From Schwartzia succinivorans DSM 10502 (GTDB taxonomy: Bacteria; Bacillota; Negativicutes; Selenomonadales; Selenomonadaceae): DNA of 64,000 nt. Shown here piece by piece: positions 51,400 through 63,864 of the stretch; position 1 is the first letter of the stretch, and each line of letters begins with the position of its first letter. The notes below the pieces were generated by a model, which did not search any database, was not told the DNA's origin, and saw only the letters and a program-made list of their open reading frames with translations. Made by a program: the position numbers and the translations under genes. The DNA is taken from contig NZ_FQUG01000002.1 of the NCBI RefSeq assembly GCF_900129225.1, positions 372,001-436,000 of the forward strand, read 5' to 3'.

Positions 51400-51732
51400 A
51401 TGGCTAAATCTTGTTCAAACTGTGGAAATGAAATTGCGGAGGGAGCAGCGTTCTGTGCTGAATGCGGTGCTGCAGCAGAAGCAGGTACTGATACGCAGGC
51501 AGTTCCGCCGTTTCAGTATCATGGAAAGAAGAAAATGTGGCTTGCTCTGCTTCTGACTTTCCTGTTCGGACCAATCGGTCTGCTGTACGCGAATGTCAAG
51601 CACGCTCTGATTCTGGTTGTCGCAACTGTTGTTGTCAGCTTCCTGACAGGTGGAATGGGCAGCATTGCAGGCTGGATTGCAAGCATGATCTGGGCTTATA
51701 AGGACGTCAAAGAATACAACGGCGAGTGCTGA
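51400..51732 (+). CDS. Zinc-ribbon membrane protein
   Basis: A 110-residue protein. It begins with a zinc ribbon (CSNCGNEIAEGAAFCAECG), then a short linker and two membrane helices (about 46-66 and 70-95) with FGPIGLLYAN between, and a cytosolic KDVKEYNGEC tail. The layout resembles TM2-like or zinc-ribbon DUF families of unknown role. AAAGGAAGG lies before the ATG. A long hairpin terminator follows. Confidence 0.8.
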   Translation: MAKSCSNCGNEIAEGAAFCAECGAAAEAGTDTQAVPPFQYHGKKKMWLALLLTFLFGPIGLLYANVKHALILVVATVVVSFLTGGMGSIAGWIASMIWAYKDVKEYNGEC

Positions 51733-51740
51733 AAACAATG

Positions 51741-51783
51741 AAAAACGCCGTGAAGAACGATTTCGTTCTTCACGGCGTTTTTG
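51741..51783 (+). terminator. Rho-independent terminator with very long stem
   Basis: AAAAACGCCGTGAAGAACGA pairs perfectly with its complement around a 2-3 nt loop, followed by TTTTT; the stem is about 20 bp. Confidence 0.92.
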
Positions 51784-51875
51784 TGTGGTATTTCAATCTG
51801 AACGACGGTTTTTATCAACTATTTAAACTTTTTTTACAGCACGTTTGTATTTTGTCCTCTTCAGGGCATGTATAT

Positions 51876-52383
51876 AGGTGAAAGGGTAATTAAATAAAAA
51901 CATTCAACCGTAACAGCACTCCGATATACCGTACAAGTAATTTCTCGCTGCAGCTGATGAGGCAGCAATGTTTTACTAAGCACCCTTCACACACAAACCG
52001 CCGAAGATGGAACTGTATTTTAAAAGACTCCGCAAGGAGCCGCGCGCAGCAGGGAAGTTCAGGCATACAAACGAACCAAAGTTTTACATTATTAAAAGTA
52101 TTGAAATTGACCTAGGGGAAAGTACGTCCCAAAACCGTATAACGCTCTTTGAATTGCAAAAATCGACAGCAATGCCCGCACTCTGTAGAAGCTGCCAAAG
52201 GTGACTTCTATCCCCGGCCGGGAGAGTACAGGAATTACAGTCGCATATAGTCTCTGTCGCAATCTCTGCGTCAGCCCGACAAACGGAAGCAAAACACCGA
52301 ATGCCGGGACAGACAGAGAGTAGCCCCGAAAGTTAATATCTACTTAAACGCCTGAATCCAATGACGGATTCAGGCGTTTTTTC
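51876..52383 (+). ncRNA. Candidate structured non-coding RNA (about 500 nt)
   Basis: The longest gene-free stretch of the window (51784-52562). Short frames inside have no ribosome site and no protein-like pattern. Nested stems can be drawn by eye: GTGAAAGGGT (51878-51887) with ACCCTTCAC (51982-51990, one bulge), inside it AAAACATT (51897-51904) with AATGTTTT (51967-51974) and GCTGC with GCAGC. Further on are CTCC-GCAA-GGAG with a GNRA loop (52028-52039), TAGAAG/CTTCTA (52186-52210) and the long-range TCTCTGTC (52251-52258) with GACAGAGA (52312-52319). A strong terminator ends it at 52382. No match to tmRNA, RNase P, 6S or SRP RNA could be recognised. The 5' end is approximate. Confidence 0.5.
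52346..52382 (+). terminator. Rho-independent terminator of the candidate ncRNA
   Basis: AAACGCCTGAATCC pairs perfectly with GGATTCAGGCGTTT around a 6-nt loop, then TTTT. No coding gene ends before it on this strand. Confidence 0.9.
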
Positions 52384-52426
52384 ATGTTTTTCTTAAATGG
52401 TTAAATTTATGATGAATTTTTAAGCA

Positions 52427-52455
52427 TTACAAGCAGGAAAAACAAGGTGTATACT
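52427..52455 (+). promoter_or_regulatory. Candidate promoter of the type I R-M locus
   Basis: TTACAA and TATACT with a 17-nt spacer, about 107 nt before hsdM. Confidence 0.5.
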
Positions 52456-52562
52456 AGAATCTATAGTGGATATAGGAAAAAGTTACTGTGAGTGATTAAA
52501 TGATTTAATTATAGGTTTTATTGCCATATTAACAAGAACAATAAAAGAGAAGAGGTCTTTTG

Positions 52563-54035
52563 ATGATAACAGGTGAGTTGAAAAACAAAGTAGATAGGAT
52601 TTGGGAGACATTTTGGACTGGTGGTATTACGAATCCGCTGGATGTTATTGAACAGTTTACGTATTTGCTGTTTATCAAACAGCTTGATGAAGTAGAGACT
52701 AAGAGAGAAGCGGATGCGGCTGTTTTGGGATATGAGCCTGACAGAATATTTCCTGATGATGCACAGGAATACAGATGGAGTAAATTTAAAAATTTAGGCG
52801 ATTCGGCTAAAATGTATGCCCTTATACAAAACAAGGTGTTTCCATTTATCAAGAATCTTCATAGTGATAGTGATTCTGCGTATTCTCGTTATATGGGAGA
52901 TGCGATATTTAAGATACCGACACCTGGCATGTTGAGTAAGGTTGTTGATGGTATTGAAGGATTGGGATTGGATGAAGCTAGTGAGGGTGGAGACACTAAA
53001 GGAGATTTGTACGAGTATTTGCTGTCAAAGGTCGCAACCGCTGGTACTAATGGTCAATTTCGTACTCCACGGCACATCATAAAAATGATGGTGGATATGG
53101 TTCAGCCCAATCCGGGAGATACAATTATTGATCCGGCAATGGGTTCTGCCGGATTCTTGATAGAAGCTCAGACTTATCTTAGAGAGCATCACAGTGATTT
53201 GTTCATGGATGATGCTCAGCGTGAGCACTTTAATAACACGATGTTCTACGGCAATGATATGGATTCTACTATGCTTCGTATCGGAGCTATGAATATGATG
53301 CTGCATGGTGTTGAAAATCCTAATATCAGTTACAGGGACAGCTTGTCGGAATTCAATACTGATGAAGAAAAATATTCCTTGGTTTTAGCTAATCCACCGT
53401 TTAAAGGCAGTTTGGATGCCGAGGCTGTGGCATCAAGCCTCTTAAAAGTAACTAAAACGAAGAAAACAGAGCTGTTGTTTTTGGCTTTGTTTCTTCGTGT
53501 ACTGAAAAAAGGTGGACGTGCTGCGGTAATTGTTCCTGATGGGGTGCTTTTTGGCAGCAGTAAAGCCCATAAACAGATACGGAAAGAAATAATTGATAAT
53601 AACAAACTAACTGCAGTAGTATCAATGCCAAGTGGCGTGTTTAAACCTTATGCAGGTGTATCTACGGCAATACTGTTCTTCACAAAGACAGGAGCTGGTG
53701 GTACAGATAAGGTTTGGTTTTACGATATGAAGGCTGATGGCTTCAGTCTTGATGATAAACGTCAGCCTGTGCAGGAAAATGATATTCCTGATATCGTTGC
53801 AAGATACTCTAATTTAGAAGCTGAATCAAGCAGAAAACGTACAGAACAGTCTTTCTTTGTGCCTGTAGAGGAAATCAAGAAAAATGATTATGATTTGTCG
53901 ATAAACGAGTACAAGGAAATTGAATATGTACCTGTAGAATATCCTCCAACAGAGGAAATCTTGAGCAATATTGATGCACTTGAGAGCGAAATACAGGCAG
54001 AATTAGCGGAATTAAAGAAATTATTGAAAAAATAA
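52563..54035 (+). CDS. hsdM: Type I restriction-modification methyltransferase subunit HsdM
   Basis: DNA N6-adenine methyltransferase of a type I system, 490 residues. An N-terminal helical domain (about 1-140, with WETFWTGGITNPLDVIEQFTY) is followed by the catalytic domain: SAM motif DPAMGSAGFL (about 190-199) and NPPF (277-280). The order hsdM-hsdS and the AT-rich codon use fit a horizontally acquired locus. ATG 52563 is used; TTG one codon before is in frame. Confidence 0.95.
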   Translation: MITGELKNKVDRIWETFWTGGITNPLDVIEQFTYLLFIKQLDEVETKREADAAVLGYEPDRIFPDDAQEYRWSKFKNLGDSAKMYALIQNKVFPFIKNLHSDSDSAYSRYMGDAIFKIPTPGMLSKVVDGIEGLGLDEASEGGDTKGDLYEYLLSKVATAGTNGQFRTPRHIIKMMVDMVQPNPGDTIIDPAMGSAGFLIEAQTYLREHHSDLFMDDAQREHFNNTMFYGNDMDSTMLRIGAMNMMLHGVENPNISYRDSLSEFNTDEEKYSLVLANPPFKGSLDAEAVASSLLKVTKTKKTELLFLALFLRVLKKGGRAAVIVPDGVLFGSSKAHKQIRKEIIDNNKLTAVVSMPSGVFKPYAGVSTAILFFTKTGAGGTDKVWFYDMKADGFSLDDKRQPVQENDIPDIVARYSNLEAESSRKRTEQSFFVPVEEIKKNDYDLSINEYKEIEYVPVEYPPTEEILSNIDALESEIQAELAELKKLLKK

Positions 54036-54058: not shown

Positions 54059-55228
54059 ATGGAGATTGAATTAAAAAAACTGGGAAAAATAACAACAGGA
54101 AATACCCCTAGTAAGAAAGATGCAAGATATTGGGATTCGACAGATATATGTTTTGTAAAACCAGATGGAATAGCAGACGAAGGAATTACACTAATTAATG
54201 ATTCATCAGAATATATATCGGAGAATGCACGTGGCAAGGCCAGAGTAGTATCTAAAGATGCGATATTTGTTACCTGTATTGGTAGTATTGGTAAAGTAGG
54301 AATAGCGGATTATGGTGACTATGCTTTTAATCAACAGATAAATGTCATAGAGTCGAATGAAAAAGTTCTACCACGTTACCTGGCATACAATCTTTTATAT
54401 TCAAAACCTAAGCTTGTAGCCATAGCAAATTCACCTGTAGTTCCAATAATAAATAAAACACAATTTGGTGAGTTCGTTGTAAACATAGAAGAAGATAAAA
54501 CAAAACAAGCTGAAATTATATCTGTATTAGATAAACTGACAGGAGTAATAGATTCTCGGAGAAAGGAACTTGAGTATTTTGATGAACTTATCAAAGCCCG
54601 ATTTGTCGAGTTCTTTGGCGATTTGATGAAAAATCCATTAGGATGGCCAGTTGTGACAATTGCTGATGTCTCTACATTTCTAAAAAGTGGATTGTCACGA
54701 AAATTGTCAGATGATGATATAGGTTTACCGGTTATACGATCTGGAAATATACGGGATGGGCTGTTCATATTCGATGATGTAAAATATTGGTATATTGACG
54801 ATCCGCAGGGCGCAAATACAAAGGATTATATTCTCGATGACGGTGATGTTTTGGTGAATTTCATTAATAGTGCATCACAGATTGGTAAGACAGCAATATA
54901 TCGTGATATAGGGCGTGATTGCATTTATACAACAAATATTTTCAGAATGAAGCTTGCTGATAATTGTGATGAATATTACTATAATTGGTTTGCTATGAGT
55001 GATTATTACTATAGACATTTGCAAAATATAATTCAACCAGCGGTCAATCAAGCGAGTTTTACTACTGTAAATTTCTTAAAATTACCAATTCCGCTTCCTT
55101 CAAAAGAGAAACAAGGGGAGTTTGCAGATTTCGTAAAACAAGTCGACAAATCAAAAGTTGTCGTTCAAAAAGCACTTGATGAAACACAAAAATTATTTGA
55201 CAGTTTGATGCAGGAGTATTTCGCTTAA
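54059..55228 (+). CDS. hsdS: Type I restriction-modification specificity subunit HsdS
   Basis: A 389-residue specificity subunit with two target-recognition domains (about 1-150 and 200-345) separated by conserved helices (EIISVLDKLTGVIDSRRKEL and FADFVKQVDKSKVVVQKAL, which are similar to one another). Each half recognises one part of a bipartite DNA target. It is intact. The recognition sequence cannot be predicted by eye. No inverted second hsdS copy was seen next to it. Confidence 0.93.
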   Translation: MEIELKKLGKITTGNTPSKKDARYWDSTDICFVKPDGIADEGITLINDSSEYISENARGKARVVSKDAIFVTCIGSIGKVGIADYGDYAFNQQINVIESNEKVLPRYLAYNLLYSKPKLVAIANSPVVPIINKTQFGEFVVNIEEDKTKQAEIISVLDKLTGVIDSRRKELEYFDELIKARFVEFFGDLMKNPLGWPVVTIADVSTFLKSGLSRKLSDDDIGLPVIRSGNIRDGLFIFDDVKYWYIDDPQGANTKDYILDDGDVLVNFINSASQIGKTAIYRDIGRDCIYTTNIFRMKLADNCDEYYYNWFAMSDYYYRHLQNIIQPAVNQASFTTVNFLKLPIPLPSKEKQGEFADFVKQVDKSKVVVQKALDETQKLFDSLMQEYFA

Positions 55229-55371
55229 AACTTGTTTTGTTATGAAAGATTACAAAAGTAAGGCGCACGTTGCTGAAATGTGTAATAAATAAACATGGTA
55301 AAAGGGATATATATTATAAGGTGAATGAAATTTGATTTATAACTTGTGGACTTTATTTAAGGAGAATGTAT

Positions 55372-57459
55372 ATGAATACAATGCCACAATGGGGTAACAA
55401 GGAACGTAGTGATGAAAAACTATACCCAGATATGATAAGAATATTTTTTGAGACCATAGTTCAAAAATTAAATTGTCATAACATTTATATTCCACATGCT
55501 AAAGGCAAAGATGTGATTGATTTTCATGATGCAGGGTTGTCGGTTGCGTATCAAAATATAAATGCAGAAATTTGTAGCTATATTAAGGAAAAAACAGGTA
55601 TAGACGCATTGCCTGATGCTGAGGTAGATGGAAAAAATTTTGATGTAGTTATTGCGAATTTACCTCTTTTACGTGTAATGTGTAATGCAATGCATCTATC
55701 TATCGTAGATAAGGCTTGCAAAATTGGATTTGATAAATATGCGATTTTTTCCATTAATGGTGATATCACATTAAACACTATAGGGAAAAAATGGCTTAAC
55801 AATCTTGAGGAGAATGGTATATTTGCTTCTGCTATAATTGATTTGCCGTCTGGAGTGTACACGCCGGTTTCATTGGTTGCAAGCAAGATTATTATTTTTA
55901 GCAAAGGTGAAAAAGATGATGTTTTTCTTGCGAAGGTAAATAATATTCAAGATATTGAGTTAGTGATTACAAATTTCTTGAATCATAAATCTTCTAAAAT
56001 AGAACACTTGGGGAAATGGGTCATTAGGGGGGAATATCCTGATTATTTAACGTATGAAAACCACAACAGAATATTGAATCTTGAACAAAAACTAGAGAGA
56101 AATTATCAGGGAGAATTAAAGTCACTTAGCGACTTGCACGTGAAATTAGAACGTTCTCCTAAAACTGGGTTTCAAGATGAAATAGAAAGTGTAATTTATA
56201 TTCCTAGGATTGGCAAATCGAATGTTGTTACGAGAATTGCAGATTTTACGCTTAAAAGTCAGAATTACTTTAGACTAATAATTGACCATAATAAGATTTT
56301 TCCAGAATTTTTAGCATTTGTTTTAAATACAGAAGCAGGTATTGAGCTTAGATTAAGATATATGACAGGAGCAGGTACGGCAACAATTCCTTCGTTAAAT
56401 TCGGCAGATGTTTTAGATATAAAAATCCCAGTCCCTGACATTGAGTTTCAGATTAAAATTTTAAAATTAGATGACGAGTTACAGCAGATAGCGACGACAA
56501 GCAGTAATTTGCGAGAGAAGTTACGTAAAATGCCAGCTGCATACAGATGTGTCATTAAAGAAATGAAAGATATAAACAATAAAGGTGACAGATTTGAACA
56601 GTGGATAGAAGAAATGCCATACCCTATGGCTACAATTTTAAAAAAATATCAAGTAGCTATTGACGAGGCGCAAAAACAAGAGATGCTGCTTTTCTTCTTT
56701 GAAGCGTATTCTATATTTGAAACGGCTATTTTAGTTGGAGCTTATGGGAAAAATTTATGCGCAGATAAAGATTCTATTGATGTCAGTGCATCGTTTTTTG
56801 AAAAAGCATCATTTGGATCATGGGTAAAAATGAATAGAGCTCTATCTAAGTCTATAAGAAAAAGAGTCGATGATAAAAAAAGCATGGATATGATTCTTGA
56901 ATGTTTCCATACAGAAGATAGAGGAACTATTAAAGCGTTATGTAATAATGAAATATGTAAAATATTGCAAACAGCGGCTGATAATAGAAATTCTTGGCGG
57001 GGACATTCAGGAATAACAAGTGAGAAGATATACGGAGAACATGTGCGTGTTTTGGAAAAGGATTTATATGAATTTCAATCTAAAATGCGAGAAGCATATG
57101 AAAATATTCAGTTGGTTCGCCCGGTATATTTAAAACGAAAAGACGGTATTTTTATAAACACTGTTGAAATTTTAACGGGATCAAATGCTATATTCAAAAA
57201 AGGTGAAATAAAAGGTGATATGGCTCTTGAGGAAGGAAAACTTTATATTAGAATGCTTGATTCAGATGGAGTTTTTGAGCTGCCGCCGTTTTTGGTTATG
57301 AAAAATTCACCAATTGATGCGAAAAATGCTTGTTATTTTTATAGCCGATTGGAGGGGAATAATACGAAATATATTTCATATCATTATGAAGGTCAGCCAG
57401 AAGATATAGAAATTGGAAAAGATGCTTATGGTGTAATAAAAAGTGTTTTGGGTGACTGA
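55372..57459 (+). CDS. Pseudo-methyltransferase / TRD / HEPN-like fusion protein in R-M locus
   Basis: A 695-residue protein that I could not assign to a named family. Residues about 1-215 follow the fold pattern of HsdM-type methyltransferases (FDVVIANLPLL, LEENGIFASAIIDLPSGVYTPVSLVASKIIIF), but motif I is degenerate (YIPHAKGKDV) and the catalytic NPPF reads NLPL, so it is probably inactive. Residues about 245-375 resemble one HsdS target-recognition domain (FPEFLAFVLNT, GTATIPSLNSADVLDIKIPVP) followed by a coiled helix. Residues about 400-580 are helical with R-N-S-W-R-G-H (539-545), an R-N-x4-H motif as in HEPN ribonucleases. A beta-rich tail of about 100 residues ends it. ATG 55372 has AAGGAG 7 nt upstream. 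It might be a DNA-sensing effector or a regulator of the R-M system. Confidence 0.6.
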   Translation: MNTMPQWGNKERSDEKLYPDMIRIFFETIVQKLNCHNIYIPHAKGKDVIDFHDAGLSVAYQNINAEICSYIKEKTGIDALPDAEVDGKNFDVVIANLPLLRVMCNAMHLSIVDKACKIGFDKYAIFSINGDITLNTIGKKWLNNLEENGIFASAIIDLPSGVYTPVSLVASKIIIFSKGEKDDVFLAKVNNIQDIELVITNFLNHKSSKIEHLGKWVIRGEYPDYLTYENHNRILNLEQKLERNYQGELKSLSDLHVKLERSPKTGFQDEIESVIYIPRIGKSNVVTRIADFTLKSQNYFRLIIDHNKIFPEFLAFVLNTEAGIELRLRYMTGAGTATIPSLNSADVLDIKIPVPDIEFQIKILKLDDELQQIATTSSNLREKLRKMPAAYRCVIKEMKDINNKGDRFEQWIEEMPYPMATILKKYQVAIDEAQKQEMLLFFFEAYSIFETAILVGAYGKNLCADKDSIDVSASFFEKASFGSWVKMNRALSKSIRKRVDDKKSMDMILECFHTEDRGTIKALCNNEICKILQTAADNRNSWRGHSGITSEKIYGEHVRVLEKDLYEFQSKMREAYENIQLVRPVYLKRKDGIFINTVEILTGSNAIFKKGEIKGDMALEEGKLYIRMLDSDGVFELPPFLVMKNSPIDAKNACYFYSRLEGNNTKYISYHYEGQPEDIEIGKDAYGVIKSVLGD

Positions 57460-57690: not shown

Positions 57691-57728
57691 AAGTGAATGT
57701 AAATAAAGTATAGATAGGAGTGTTCGCT

Positions 57729-60700
57729 ATGGCATCAAATTTTGAGCATTTAATCAATAAAAAAGGCTATAAGAACTTTGCTCAAGCAGCAGTTGAAGCT
57801 GAGAAATGTCTGGCGGTATCTCCTGCAAGTTCGGCAATCCATGCTCGAAAAGCACTGGAATTGGGCGTGAAGTTTATATACTCAGTAGAGCCGGAACTGA
57901 ACATTCCCTACAGGGAGACTTTGTCTGCTTTGATTCATAACTATACCTTCAAAGGTAAAATTGGCGTGCAGTTATTTCACTTGATTAAGTTCATCGTGCA
58001 TTTGGGAAATATGGCGGTGCATTCCAACAGCCCCATCAAGCGTGATGACGCGGTATTGGCATTGCGAAATCTGCATAATTTCTGTGACTGGATAGATTAT
58101 TCGTATTCTGACGAGTATGAGCAGACGGAATTTGATGTCAGCATTTTGCCTTCATCGGATTCTGAACGTCAGACTAAGGAACAGCTGCAGAAGTTAGCTG
58201 ATACATTGAATAGCAAGACTCAAAGCATTGAGGAACTGACCAAAATAAACAAGGAATTGATGGTTCAGCTTCAGCAAATGAAGGAAACCTATCAACAGCA
58301 GCGCACCTTCCAAGTAGATAAGATTAGTGAAGCGGAAACAAGAAAGAAATATATCGATGTTGCGCTTATGGATGCTGGGTGGCGTATGGCGGAGTCTGGG
58401 GTGACGTCCCCGAATTGTTATCCTGAAGTTCCTGTTGAGGGCATGCCTAATGCCACAGGACAAGGTTTTGTAGATTATGTTCTTTATGGGCAGGACCAGA
58501 TTCCTTTAGCTGTTGTGGAGGCGAAGAAGGCTTCGGTAGACCCTTTGGTTGGAAGCCAGCAGGCCAAATTATATGCTGATTGCTTGGAAAAGCAGTATGG
58601 GCGGAGGCCTTTGATATTCACCACTAATGGTTTTGATATTTTTTACACCAATGACTATATGCAAGAGGCAAGACGCCCGATATCAGGGTTCTTCACTCAG
58701 GATGAATTGCAGCTTGAGATGGACAGACGGACGAGCCGTATTCCTTTGACGAATATTGAAATTGATGACAAAATAACGAATCGTCCATACCAGAAAAATG
58801 CAGTGATTAATGCCTGTGAGGATATCAGCAATCGTCATCGCAAGTTTTTGATTGTGCAGGCTACCGGTACAGGAAAAACCAGGGTAAGTATCAGCTTGGT
58901 TGATGTGCTTTTGAAGCATAACTACATAAAGAATATATTGTTTTTGGCGGATAGAACGGCTTTGGTGCGTCAGGCTAAAAGGAATTTTGTGGATCTTTTG
59001 ACAAATCTGACCTGCTGCAATCTGATGGAAAATAAAGAAGACCCGGAGCAGTGCCGGATGATTTTTTCTACCTATCCGACGATTATGAATGCTATAGATG
59101 AGACAAAGAGCAAAGATGGAAGTCGCCTGTTTACGCCGGGGCATTTTGATCTCATCATTTTGGATGAAGCTCATAGGTCTGTATATAACAAGTATCAGGA
59201 TATTTTTAACTATTTTGATGCAATGCTTTTGGGGTTGACGGCTACACCGAAGAGCGAGATTGATAAAGATACCTATGCGGTATTTGATTTGGAAAAGGGA
59301 AATCCTACTTTTGCCTATGAATATGATTCTGCGGTATCTGAAGGCTATTTGGTGACATACAGCACCATAGAGTACAAAGATAAGATTATAGAGAATGGCG
59401 TGCATTACGACCAGCTTTCTGAAGCGGAGAAGCGTCATTTTGAAGATACTTTCGCTGATGATCCGATGGTAAGTGTGACTAAAACAGTTCCGAATACTGC
59501 GGTGAATAAGTGGCTTTTTAATCAGGATACCATTGATAATATGCTGAAAGAACTTATGGATAAAGGATTGAAGGTCGCGGGCGGAGATATTCTTGGCAAG
59601 ACTATAATTTTTGCTAGGAGCAGTCTGCATGCTAAAGCTATTGTTGAACGGTTTAATAAGCTGTTCCCTGAGTACGGCGGCGACTTTATCAAGGAAATTG
59701 ACTACAGCATAAAATATGCGGATAGCCTGCTGGATGAGTTCAGTACGAAGGAGAAGTATCCGCAGATTGCAGTGTCCGTGGATATGCTGGACACCGGAAT
59801 TGATGTGCCTGAAATTCTTAATTTGGTTTTCTACAAGAAGGTTAGGAGCTATACGAAATTCTGGCAGATGATTGGACGAGGTACGCGTCTTTGCAAAGAT
59901 TTGTTTGGACCGAGCCAGGACAAAGAGAAGTTCCTGATCTTTGATTTCTGTGGCAACTTTGATTTCTTCAGGGAAAATACGAATGGCCAGGAGAATAACA
60001 AGCAGTTAACTTTGATGGAGAAGATTTATAACACTAAAACTGAGATACTGCGCTCGCTGCAGGATGCTGAGTATACAGCGGACGCGGATTATGTCGCTTT
60101 TAGGCAGTCTATGGCAGAAGATATGTGTCAGGCTGTGGTGCGATTGGATGATGACAGTTTCCGTGTGAAGATGCGTCGGGAGCAGGTAGATGTTTATCGG
60201 GATATAAATAATTGGCAGGATTTGAATGAGCTGAAAGTTGCTGAGATAAAAAAGAAAATATCTCCAATTATAATGCCGACAGATAGAAACGAACTGGCTC
60301 GTCGGTTTGATTATCTGATGTACAGTATTATGCTTGGTAATCTTAATAAGACAAGCGTAGATAAACCAAGAAGTGTTGTAGTGCAGAGCTGTACTATGCT
60401 GACGAAGAAATATACTATTCCGCAAGTGGCGGCTAAACGTGCATTGATTGAGCGTGTTATTACTGACGGGTATTGGACTGAAGCAAAGCTGCCGGATTAC
60501 GAACAGGCACGAGAAGCTCTTAGGGAGTTAATGCAGTTTATTGATAAGGAAGAGCAGAAGATTTATTATTCTCATTTTGATGATATTTTCACGAATATTA
60601 CGCAAGGCGATCCTCTTGGCGGAGGCATAAACCTGAAGCCGTACAAGGAGCGTATAACCAGCTATTTGAAAGAACATGCGGATACTTTGGCTGTATATAA

Positions 60701-61118
60701 ACTCCGCAATAATAAGCCGCTGACTTCTGTGGATTTGAAGATGCTTGAAAAGATTTTGTGGGAAGAGTTAGGTACTAAAGACGAGTATGCTAAAGATTAC
60801 GGGGAAAAGCCCATTGGGTTGCTGGTCAGAGAAATTGTAGGAATGGAGCAGTCTGCCGTAAATGAAGCTTTTAGCGAGTTTATCTCTCAGGGGAATCTCA
60901 ACAGCAAGCAGATTGATTTTGTGAATATGATTATTGCCTATATTGTGAAGAACGGAAATATTGTGGACGTCAAAAAGACATTCAGCCAACAGCCTTTCAA
61001 GAATTTTGGCGGTGGAGTCAGTACGCTGTTTAGAGATAAAATGCCGCTGGTAAAGCGGATTATGGAGAGAGTCGCGCAAATCAAGAGAAACTCGGAAGAG
61101 ATAGTAGAGGCGTCATAA
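57729..61118 (+). CDS. hsdR: Type I restriction endonuclease subunit HsdR (DUF4145-containing)
   Basis: Motor and nuclease subunit, 1129 residues. Residues about 1-130 form a DUF4145 domain (SSAIHARKALELGVKFIY). After a coiled segment comes the PD-(D/E)xK nuclease (GFVDYVLYGQ, then LAVVEAKK at about 262-267). The helicase has Walker A ATGTGKT (378-384), DEAH in LIILDEAHRSVYNKY and the motif VI region MIGRGTRLCKDL. The C-terminal third matches EcoEI-type R subunits. It appears intact. ATG 57729 has TAGGAG upstream. With hsdM and hsdS it makes a complete system. Confidence 0.94.
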   Translation: MASNFEHLINKKGYKNFAQAAVEAEKCLAVSPASSAIHARKALELGVKFIYSVEPELNIPYRETLSALIHNYTFKGKIGVQLFHLIKFIVHLGNMAVHSNSPIKRDDAVLALRNLHNFCDWIDYSYSDEYEQTEFDVSILPSSDSERQTKEQLQKLADTLNSKTQSIEELTKINKELMVQLQQMKETYQQQRTFQVDKISEAETRKKYIDVALMDAGWRMAESGVTSPNCYPEVPVEGMPNATGQGFVDYVLYGQDQIPLAVVEAKKASVDPLVGSQQAKLYADCLEKQYGRRPLIFTTNGFDIFYTNDYMQEARRPISGFFTQDELQLEMDRRTSRIPLTNIEIDDKITNRPYQKNAVINACEDISNRHRKFLIVQATGTGKTRVSISLVDVLLKHNYIKNILFLADRTALVRQAKRNFVDLLTNLTCCNLMENKEDPEQCRMIFSTYPTIMNAIDETKSKDGSRLFTPGHFDLIILDEAHRSVYNKYQDIFNYFDAMLLGLTATPKSEIDKDTYAVFDLEKGNPTFAYEYDSAVSEGYLVTYSTIEYKDKIIENGVHYDQLSEAEKRHFEDTFADDPMVSVTKTVPNTAVNKWLFNQDTIDNMLKELMDKGLKVAGGDILGKTIIFARSSLHAKAIVERFNKLFPEYGGDFIKEIDYSIKYADSLLDEFSTKEKYPQIAVSVDMLDTGIDVPEILNLVFYKKVRSYTKFWQMIGRGTRLCKDLFGPSQDKEKFLIFDFCGNFDFFRENTNGQENNKQLTLMEKIYNTKTEILRSLQDAEYTADADYVAFRQSMAEDMCQAVVRLDDDSFRVKMRREQVDVYRDINNWQDLNELKVAEIKKKISPIIMPTDRNELARRFDYLMYSIMLGNLNKTSVDKPRSVVVQSCTMLTKKYTIPQVAAKRALIERVITDGYWTEAKLPDYEQAREALRELMQFIDKEEQKIYYSHFDDIFTNITQGDPLGGGINLKPYKERITSYLKEHADTLAVYKLRNNKPLTSVDLKMLEKILWEELGTKDEYAKDYGEKPIGLLVREIVGMEQSAVNEAFSEFISQGNLNSKQIDFVNMIIAYIVKNGNIVDVKKTFSQQPFKNFGGGVSTLFRDKMPLVKRIMERVAQIKRNSEEIVEAS

Positions 61119-63579: not shown

Positions 63580-63864
63580 GAATGGACACTCCTTCCATAA
63601 TATAATGGCATAAATAGCATACGTGATATATTATAATGCCTTTAATCAAAGTTTGCCATATGCAAACTTACTTCTGTGGCATTTCAACGAGGCGCAATAT
63701 GTTCAATTTCATTTGTTTTTCTCGTCGCCACTTACAGAAATGGGGGATATTTTTTGCCGGGTTATATGTTAAGAAAGTATGAAAAATCAACGGAATTTGG
63801 TGCTTTGCGGCAAAATGTGCTATCATTAATTGGTTGTTTATTTTTTCATATGGAGTGAAGAAAA

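Follow-up and report, generated by a model that had tools for sequence, protein, structure and literature searches.

A probable non-coding transcription unit behind an alternative-sigma-type promoter at the head of a type I restriction-modification island in Schwartzia succinivorans

The gene-free stretch ahead of the type I restriction-modification (R-M) genes of Schwartzia succinivorans is the probable source of a ~500-nt RNA, which, judging from the promoter in front of it, would be part of a co-regulated gene set that had not been described before. On balance, we favor the reading in which an alternative-sigma regulon has a complete non-coding transcription unit at 51,845-52,383 of the window (the whole 64-kb stretch of DNA that was analyzed), heading a type I R-M island, and we prefer the form of this reading in which the product is a separate regulatory RNA rather than a coding message. 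A sigma-70-family alternative sigma factor, encoded beside a DUF1659-DUF2922-amidase operon on another contig, would recognize 51,845-51,876, and RNA polymerase would then transcribe about 500 nt, beginning at approximately 51,878 and stopping at the terminator (52,383). Of this RNA, the first ~220 nt would constitute a transferable module common to two Schwartzia species, with the 3' half differing between them, and the RNA would be present only when the sigma program is on, along with DUF1659/DUF2922, a holin or amidase, a serine recombinase, and several hairpin RNAs of ~60 nt. Non-coding RNAs would in this way connect the sigma program with neighboring defense genes, a connection that we infer from position, since at least half of the regulon's non-coding sites immediately precede a restriction or defense gene.

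The 827 bp between the end of the zinc-ribbon gene (51,732) and the start of hsdM (52,560) hold no credible gene, in line with the earlier note, which had described about 780 bp without one. The longest sense ORF, 52,007-52,204 (65 aa), has no match in Pfam, PHROGs, or plasmids and is frameshifted in a second Schwartzia species; the short ORFs of the stretch matched no protein family in Pfam or PHROGs, and the degraded protein gene whose possible presence the note had raised was not found with these or with tblastn, which gave no trace of a DUF1659, DUF2922, amidase, or recombinase gene. A bidirectional terminator closes the zinc-ribbon gene and sets the RNA unit apart from upstream transcription, and at the far end lies the perfect intrinsic terminator that the earlier note had described, indeed with no coding gene before it (Table 1). 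The RNA predicted between promoter and terminator, ~51,878 to ~52,383, is close in extent to the one first proposed. GC content falls from 0.49 upstream to 0.41-0.48 within the RNA and 0.26 in the spacer and is 0.38 over the R-M genes, and so the unit does sit at the border of an AT-richer R-M island, as had been suggested; the island itself is supported by PADLOC (MTase_I 5.5e-195, REase_I 5.1e-157) and Pfam (Methylase_S, ResIII, EcoEI_R_C) matches.

Table 1. Features of the window and other sites of the promoter motif and of the hairpin family. Positions without a prefix are those of the window; contig handles (C) refer to the S. succinivorans genome (own) or to the second Schwartzia species (second).
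Feature	Position	Strand	Remarks
Zinc-ribbon gene	51,400-51,732		upstream neighbor; Pfam Zn_Ribbon_1
Bidirectional terminator, near-perfect	51,741-51,782	.	20-nt inverted repeat, 100% complementary, 2-nt loop; terminator scan
Conserved DNA just upstream of promoter	51,829-51,844	+	conservation with second species begins at 51,829
Alternative-sigma-type promoter (own, site 6)	51,845-51,876	+	TTGTATTTTGTCCTCTTCAGGGCATGTATATA; -35-like TTGTATTTT, -10-like GGCATGTATATA; 0 mismatches to motif; then ~500-nt RNA, then hsdM-hsdS-hsdR
5' module of RNA, ~220 nt	51,877-52,094	+	shared with Schwartzia sp. RUI279
Predicted imperfect long hairpin	51,878-51,992	+	closing stem GUGAA.GGG / CCCUUCAC; predicted in both species
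CTCC-GCAA-GGAG hairpin	52,028-52,039	+	GNRA-loop hairpin of the earlier note
3' module of RNA	52,095-52,345	+	own genome only; fold z -1.55
Intrinsic terminator	52,346-52,383	+	perfect 14 bp, 7 GC pairs, 6-nt loop, T-run; no gene before
hsdM	52,560-54,035	+	first gene of type I R-M island; PADLOC MTase_I 5.5e-195
hsdS	54,059-55,228		R-M island, downstream of RNA
697-aa protein	55,366-57,459		between hsdS and hsdR; weak mid-protein HsdS-like similarity (PADLOC mad5 9e-11, Specificity_I 1e-8); other portions unassigned
hsdR	57,720-61,118		R-M island
Promoter site 1, own	C10		DUF1659 operon
Promoter site 2, own	C9:221,558	-	serine recombinase (Pfam Resolvase 1.2e-28), then terminator hairpin, then HsdM, HsdS
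Promoter site 3, own	C9:52,300	-	hairpin, then type I methyltransferase (PADLOC 9.5e-183)
Promoter site 4, own	C2:9,668	-	hairpin, then HKD+Snf2 defense-type protein (4.3e-45)
Promoter site 5, own	C9:277,021	-	hairpin, behind RelE-like toxin-antitoxin pair (by eye)
Promoter site, second	C98		5' module of RNA, then DUF4143-type ATPase
Promoter site, second	C139		hairpin, then type II MTase and REase
Promoter site, second	C51		hairpin, then YybS-like gene
Promoter site, second	C97		hairpin, then GNAT gene
Hairpin, own	C9:52213-52282		
Hairpin, own	C9:276944-277010		
Hairpin, own	C2:9595-9663		
Hairpin, own	C9:220793-220861		
Hairpin, second	C139:2874		
Hairpin, second	C51:9729		
Hairpin, second	C97:11991		

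The promoter is an exact copy of the regulon motif TTGTWTTTT-N11-GGCATGTATRTR, which occurs once in the window, at this site, and in none of 100 window shuffles. Searched with TTGTW-N11-Y-N3-GGCATGTATR at ≤1 mismatch, the genome as a whole has six motif sites, against none for the reversed-pattern control. Two of the six lie ahead of protein genes, three are followed immediately by a short terminator hairpin, and one starts the RNA. BLAST against relatives returned matches of 32-56 bp around 51,828-51,886 in the same genome and in Pectinatus, and these short matches are promoters, TTGTATTTTTTGTGATTCAAGGCATGTATATAAGTGAAAGGGGG ahead of DUF1659-DUF2922 genes. The motif heads DUF1659-DUF2922(-holin/amidase) operons in Schwartzia and Pectinatus, with variants in other Selenomonadaceae genera, and DUF1659 itself is present in 91 of 107 Selenomonadaceae genomes. 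In S. succinivorans, the operon behind the motif encodes DUF1659, DUF2922, a 56-aa protein, and an Amidase_2 protein, and a sigma-70-family gene, at about 40,440-41,000 of C10, follows 1-2 kb on, its product having sigma-70 region 4 by Pfam and NCBIfam (locus L014). By eye, a sigma-like gene and an amidase gene also flank the DUF1659-DUF2922 pair of Pectinatus frisingensis (L006), so that a sigma-70-family gene adjoins the operon in both loci examined; the gene that the motif heads in another Pectinatus looks, again by eye, like one for a phage-type holin. Given this co-location of motif and sigma gene, which is the basis for the assignment, the promoter at 51,845-51,876 is most likely recognized by the sigma factor encoded beside the DUF1659 operon. 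The RNA starts with GGTGAAAGGG, as the DUF1659 leaders do, but without a start codon. A search of the literature on DUF1659/DUF2922 and an associated sigma regulon returned nothing relevant. Also beside the sigma gene, at L014:4528-4992 (-), is a 154-aa protein that looks ComK-like by eye and has no Pfam or NCBIfam match.

The promoter and the 5' module recur in the second species, Schwartzia sp. isolate RUI279, the only other genome of the genus among those compared, with 92% identity over 267 positions (51,829-52,094) to C98:9188-9450, a copy carried on JAILNL010000126.1 (10,191 bp). Identity rises from ~36% before 51,829 to >90% from there, with 93% in the alignment that begins at this position, and drops again at 52,094, and the genes on both sides differ, being recJ and a DUF4143-type ATPase gene in the second species and the zinc-ribbon gene and hsdM in S. 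succinivorans, whose own recJ is located elsewhere without the RNA beside it. The alignment of the 5' module contains frame-breaking indels of 1, 2, 1, and 1 nt, which rule out a conserved reading frame, and because 92% identity is maintained between different neighbors despite these indels, the module is, by its sequence, conserved but not coding. A covariance model of the 5' module (R1) found matches in the two Schwartzia genomes only, among 189 genomes of the family. In place of the 3' module, the second species has unrelated sequence, in which a hairpin with a short T-run (AAGCATCTTAGAAA...TTTCTAAGGTGCTTTT) can be seen by eye ~150-170 nt past the 5' module, although the terminator scan did not call it. 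A comparison aimed at an empty site did not find the upstream genes in the second-species assembly, which is 63% complete, and its downstream query matched mainly a dispersed repeat. This repeat of ~140 bp, at 63,625-63,770 of the window, is not in Rfam and has dozens of matches in the S. succinivorans genome and some twenty in that of the second species.

The same conservation is what gives weight to the foremost of the three strongest competing explanations, namely that the shared 267 bp are a small mobile or recently transferred segment at the edges of defense islands, kept by transfer and not by function, with the promoter riding along. Both flanks differ between the copies, and the promoter spacer is the same at 10 of 10 positions in the two species, although the spacers of other sites vary freely and a sigma site linked to bioB, which occupies the same place in both species, is strongly diverged. 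The spacer and the bioB-linked site together would indicate either recent horizontal exchange or an unusual constraint, and the high identity, spacer included, points no less to a recent horizontal transfer than to constraint acting on the RNA. However, there is one copy per genome, no adjoining terminal repeats or transposase were seen, and no homologues were found by BLAST or pattern search in phage, plasmid, and viral collections. Transfer would moreover be compatible with a functional RNA and does not exclude one; as an explanation in place of function, we consider it a real but minority possibility.

Only slightly less plausible, and still rather unlikely, is a relic, in which a sigma-controlled protein gene, comparable to the serine recombinase at C9:221k, has decayed or been deleted to leave a promoter, a scrap, and a terminator with no present function. 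The promoter and the GTGAAAGGG leader resemble those of the DUF1659 operons, the two copies have unrelated 3' halves, and there is no excess structure, as described below, all of which would fit a relic. Against it stand the failure, noted above, to find any remnant of a DUF1659, DUF2922, amidase, or recombinase gene or any family match for the short ORFs, and the identity of the 5' module, which at 92% exceeds that of coding DNA between the two species (75% for recJ, 85% for bioB) and is unlike a decaying relic unless it was recently transferred.

Fold stability does not add to the case for an RNA. The earlier note had pointed to nested long-range stems, and these turn out to be no better than chance once the terminator is set aside: 51,876-52,344 (469 nt) has a fold z of +0.32 against dinucleotide shuffles, and the 3' part reaches -1.55. 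Values of -2 to -4 are obtained only with the terminator included, and the z of -2.2 for the whole stretch arises because the terminator contributes. A 5' hairpin is predicted from GUGAAAGGG to CCCUUCAC in both species, a shared prediction that is expected at such identity. In the alignment of the two sequences (92% identity), the 49 consensus pairs include one one-sided and no two-sided changes, and whether folds were predicted as MFE, centroid, or MEA, and whichever of the two species served as reference, substitutions in these two sequences do not significantly avoid the predicted helices, although one of two circular-shift tests reached 0.04. The GNRA-loop hairpin that had been noticed is present, but the relative loses one base and with it the GNRA loop (CTCCGAAAGAG). 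The ordinary fold stability without the terminator and the lack of two-sided pair changes count against the reading that we favor, as does a comparison limited to two sequences of a single genus, one of which lacks the 3' half. The proposal of an unrecognized ~500-nt RNA is supported by promoter, non-coding conservation, and terminator, and its argument from nested stems is not supported.

The earlier statement that no standard RNA is recognizable here also stands. A scan of the whole window with 4,227 Rfam models gave no match at the gathering score and, with relaxed filters, no meaningful match at E ≤ 5, and ARAGORN found no tRNA or tmRNA. Sub-threshold S15-leader-like and miRNA-like Rfam matches were set aside as chance or simple terminator stems. 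A missed member of the known large ornate RNAs (ROOL, GOLLD, OLE, raiA, or HEARO class) would be of similar size, and the rumen origin would suit it, but with no model match it is refuted for the families of Rfam 15 and is very improbable.

The same promoter leads to a related terminator hairpin at three further sites in the S. succinivorans genome and three in the second species. The hairpins follow the pattern GCATCTTTT..CTG.TGA..CAG..AAAGATGC and stand directly behind the sigma promoter, except for one copy that stands behind the recombinase gene instead. A covariance model (R2) has seven clear members, at 41-82 bits or with the promoter, in the two Schwartzia genomes and scores ≤37 bits elsewhere; the hairpins behind the sigma promoter would give RNAs of ~60 nt. 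Across the eight non-coding sigma sites, the next genes on the same strand include two type I MTases, an Snf2/HKD defense helicase, a type II MTase, and the DUF4143 ATPase. Four of the eight lie directly ahead of a restriction or defense gene, or five if the DUF4143-type ATPase is counted, a homologue of which in L017 is the PADLOC candidate PDC-S01; the sites not ahead of a defense gene (3/8) are C9:277k in S. succinivorans and C51 and C97 in the second species. This bias was noticed after the fact and is suggestive only, because the binomial figures for it use rough counts (6/9 and 4/9) and a background rate assumed at 3-10%.

The arrangement of these sites bears on the last of the three explanations, by which the sigma promoter and the RNA form an untranslated 5' leader of hsdM-hsdS-hsdR with conditional read-through of the terminator at 52,346-52,383, which would bring the R-M genes themselves under the sigma program. 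As in attenuator leaders ahead of operons generally, a promoter, an untranslated stretch, and an intrinsic terminator precede a same-strand operon, with hsdM directly downstream, 177 nt past the terminator, and the order of sigma promoter, terminator, and defense gene recurs at C9:52k, at C2, and at C139 of the second species, and at C9:221k with the recombinase gene in between. Unlike such leaders, however, the stretch has no alternative anti-terminator stem that we could identify, and the hsdM operon may have its own promoter: a sigma-70-like element, ATTACA-18-TATACT (52,426-52,455), could serve hsdM, although such elements are expected by chance, and several of the hairpin sites have a separate promoter-like box after the terminator. 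We regard a leader as rather unlikely.

Small RNAs that depend on alternative sigma factors, such as sigma-E or sigma-B, are known in bacteria. The Schwartzia RNA would be an addition to this known kind, outside every Rfam family; it shares with them a non-coding unit, a regulon promoter held in common with protein operons, and an intrinsic terminator, and differs in its length of ~500 nt, in being accessory, in its position at the head of a defense island, and in a DUF1659-DUF2922-linked sigma factor and regulon that have no description in the literature searched. The large ornate RNAs ROOL, GOLLD, and OLE are hundreds of nucleotides long, intergenic, and without an ORF (PMC12286853), and the Schwartzia RNA resembles them in size, intergenic position, and lack of an ORF, but it has no covariance-model match, no excess fold stability, and, in two sequences, no covarying pairs. 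A long abundant non-coding RNA of Lactobacillus salivarius was found by RNA-seq (PMC5643018) and is likewise from a Firmicute, whereas transcription of the Schwartzia RNA is predicted from its promoter and terminator.

The DUF1659-DUF2922 pair is near-universal in Selenomonadaceae yet unstudied. If the adjoining sigma factor drives the promoter, the locus would point to a new regulon, a context for DUF1659/DUF2922, and a family of non-coding RNAs attached to defense islands. Very tentatively, an undescribed alternative-sigma program comprising DUF1659/DUF2922, holin/amidase, and serine recombinase might switch on non-coding RNAs, one of ~500 nt and several hairpins of ~60 nt, at the heads of restriction and defense operons and so tie a lysis- or DNA-exchange-type state, via RNA, to the control or reshuffling of defense genes. 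If the link is merely positional, the locus still serves as a good example of a probable unit, from promoter to terminator, that escapes both Rfam and structure statistics.

Two further observations concern the surroundings of the sigma sites. A sigma-promoter/hairpin site stands next to bioB in both species (C2:9.7k in S. succinivorans, C97:12.0k in the second species), and the genes behind it differ, an Snf2/HKD defense protein in the former and a GNAT gene in the latter, as if the site marked a junction with exchangeable cargo. Separately, a promoter-like box of ~110 bp lies between ACGTATACGTT repeats at L118:1563-1672 and L117:2184-2288, with homologues in L008, L021, and L028. The repeats are inverted, with arms of 16-28 nt, in L118, L117, and L008, the boxes precede HsdM, Snf2, MTase, or GNAT genes, and the arrangement looks like a candidate invertible promoter (inverton). 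The motif ACGTATACGT of such candidate boxes is absent next to the ~500-nt RNA, and the sigma-driven serine recombinase gene at C9:221k adjoins one of the ACGTATACGTT-flanked boxes.
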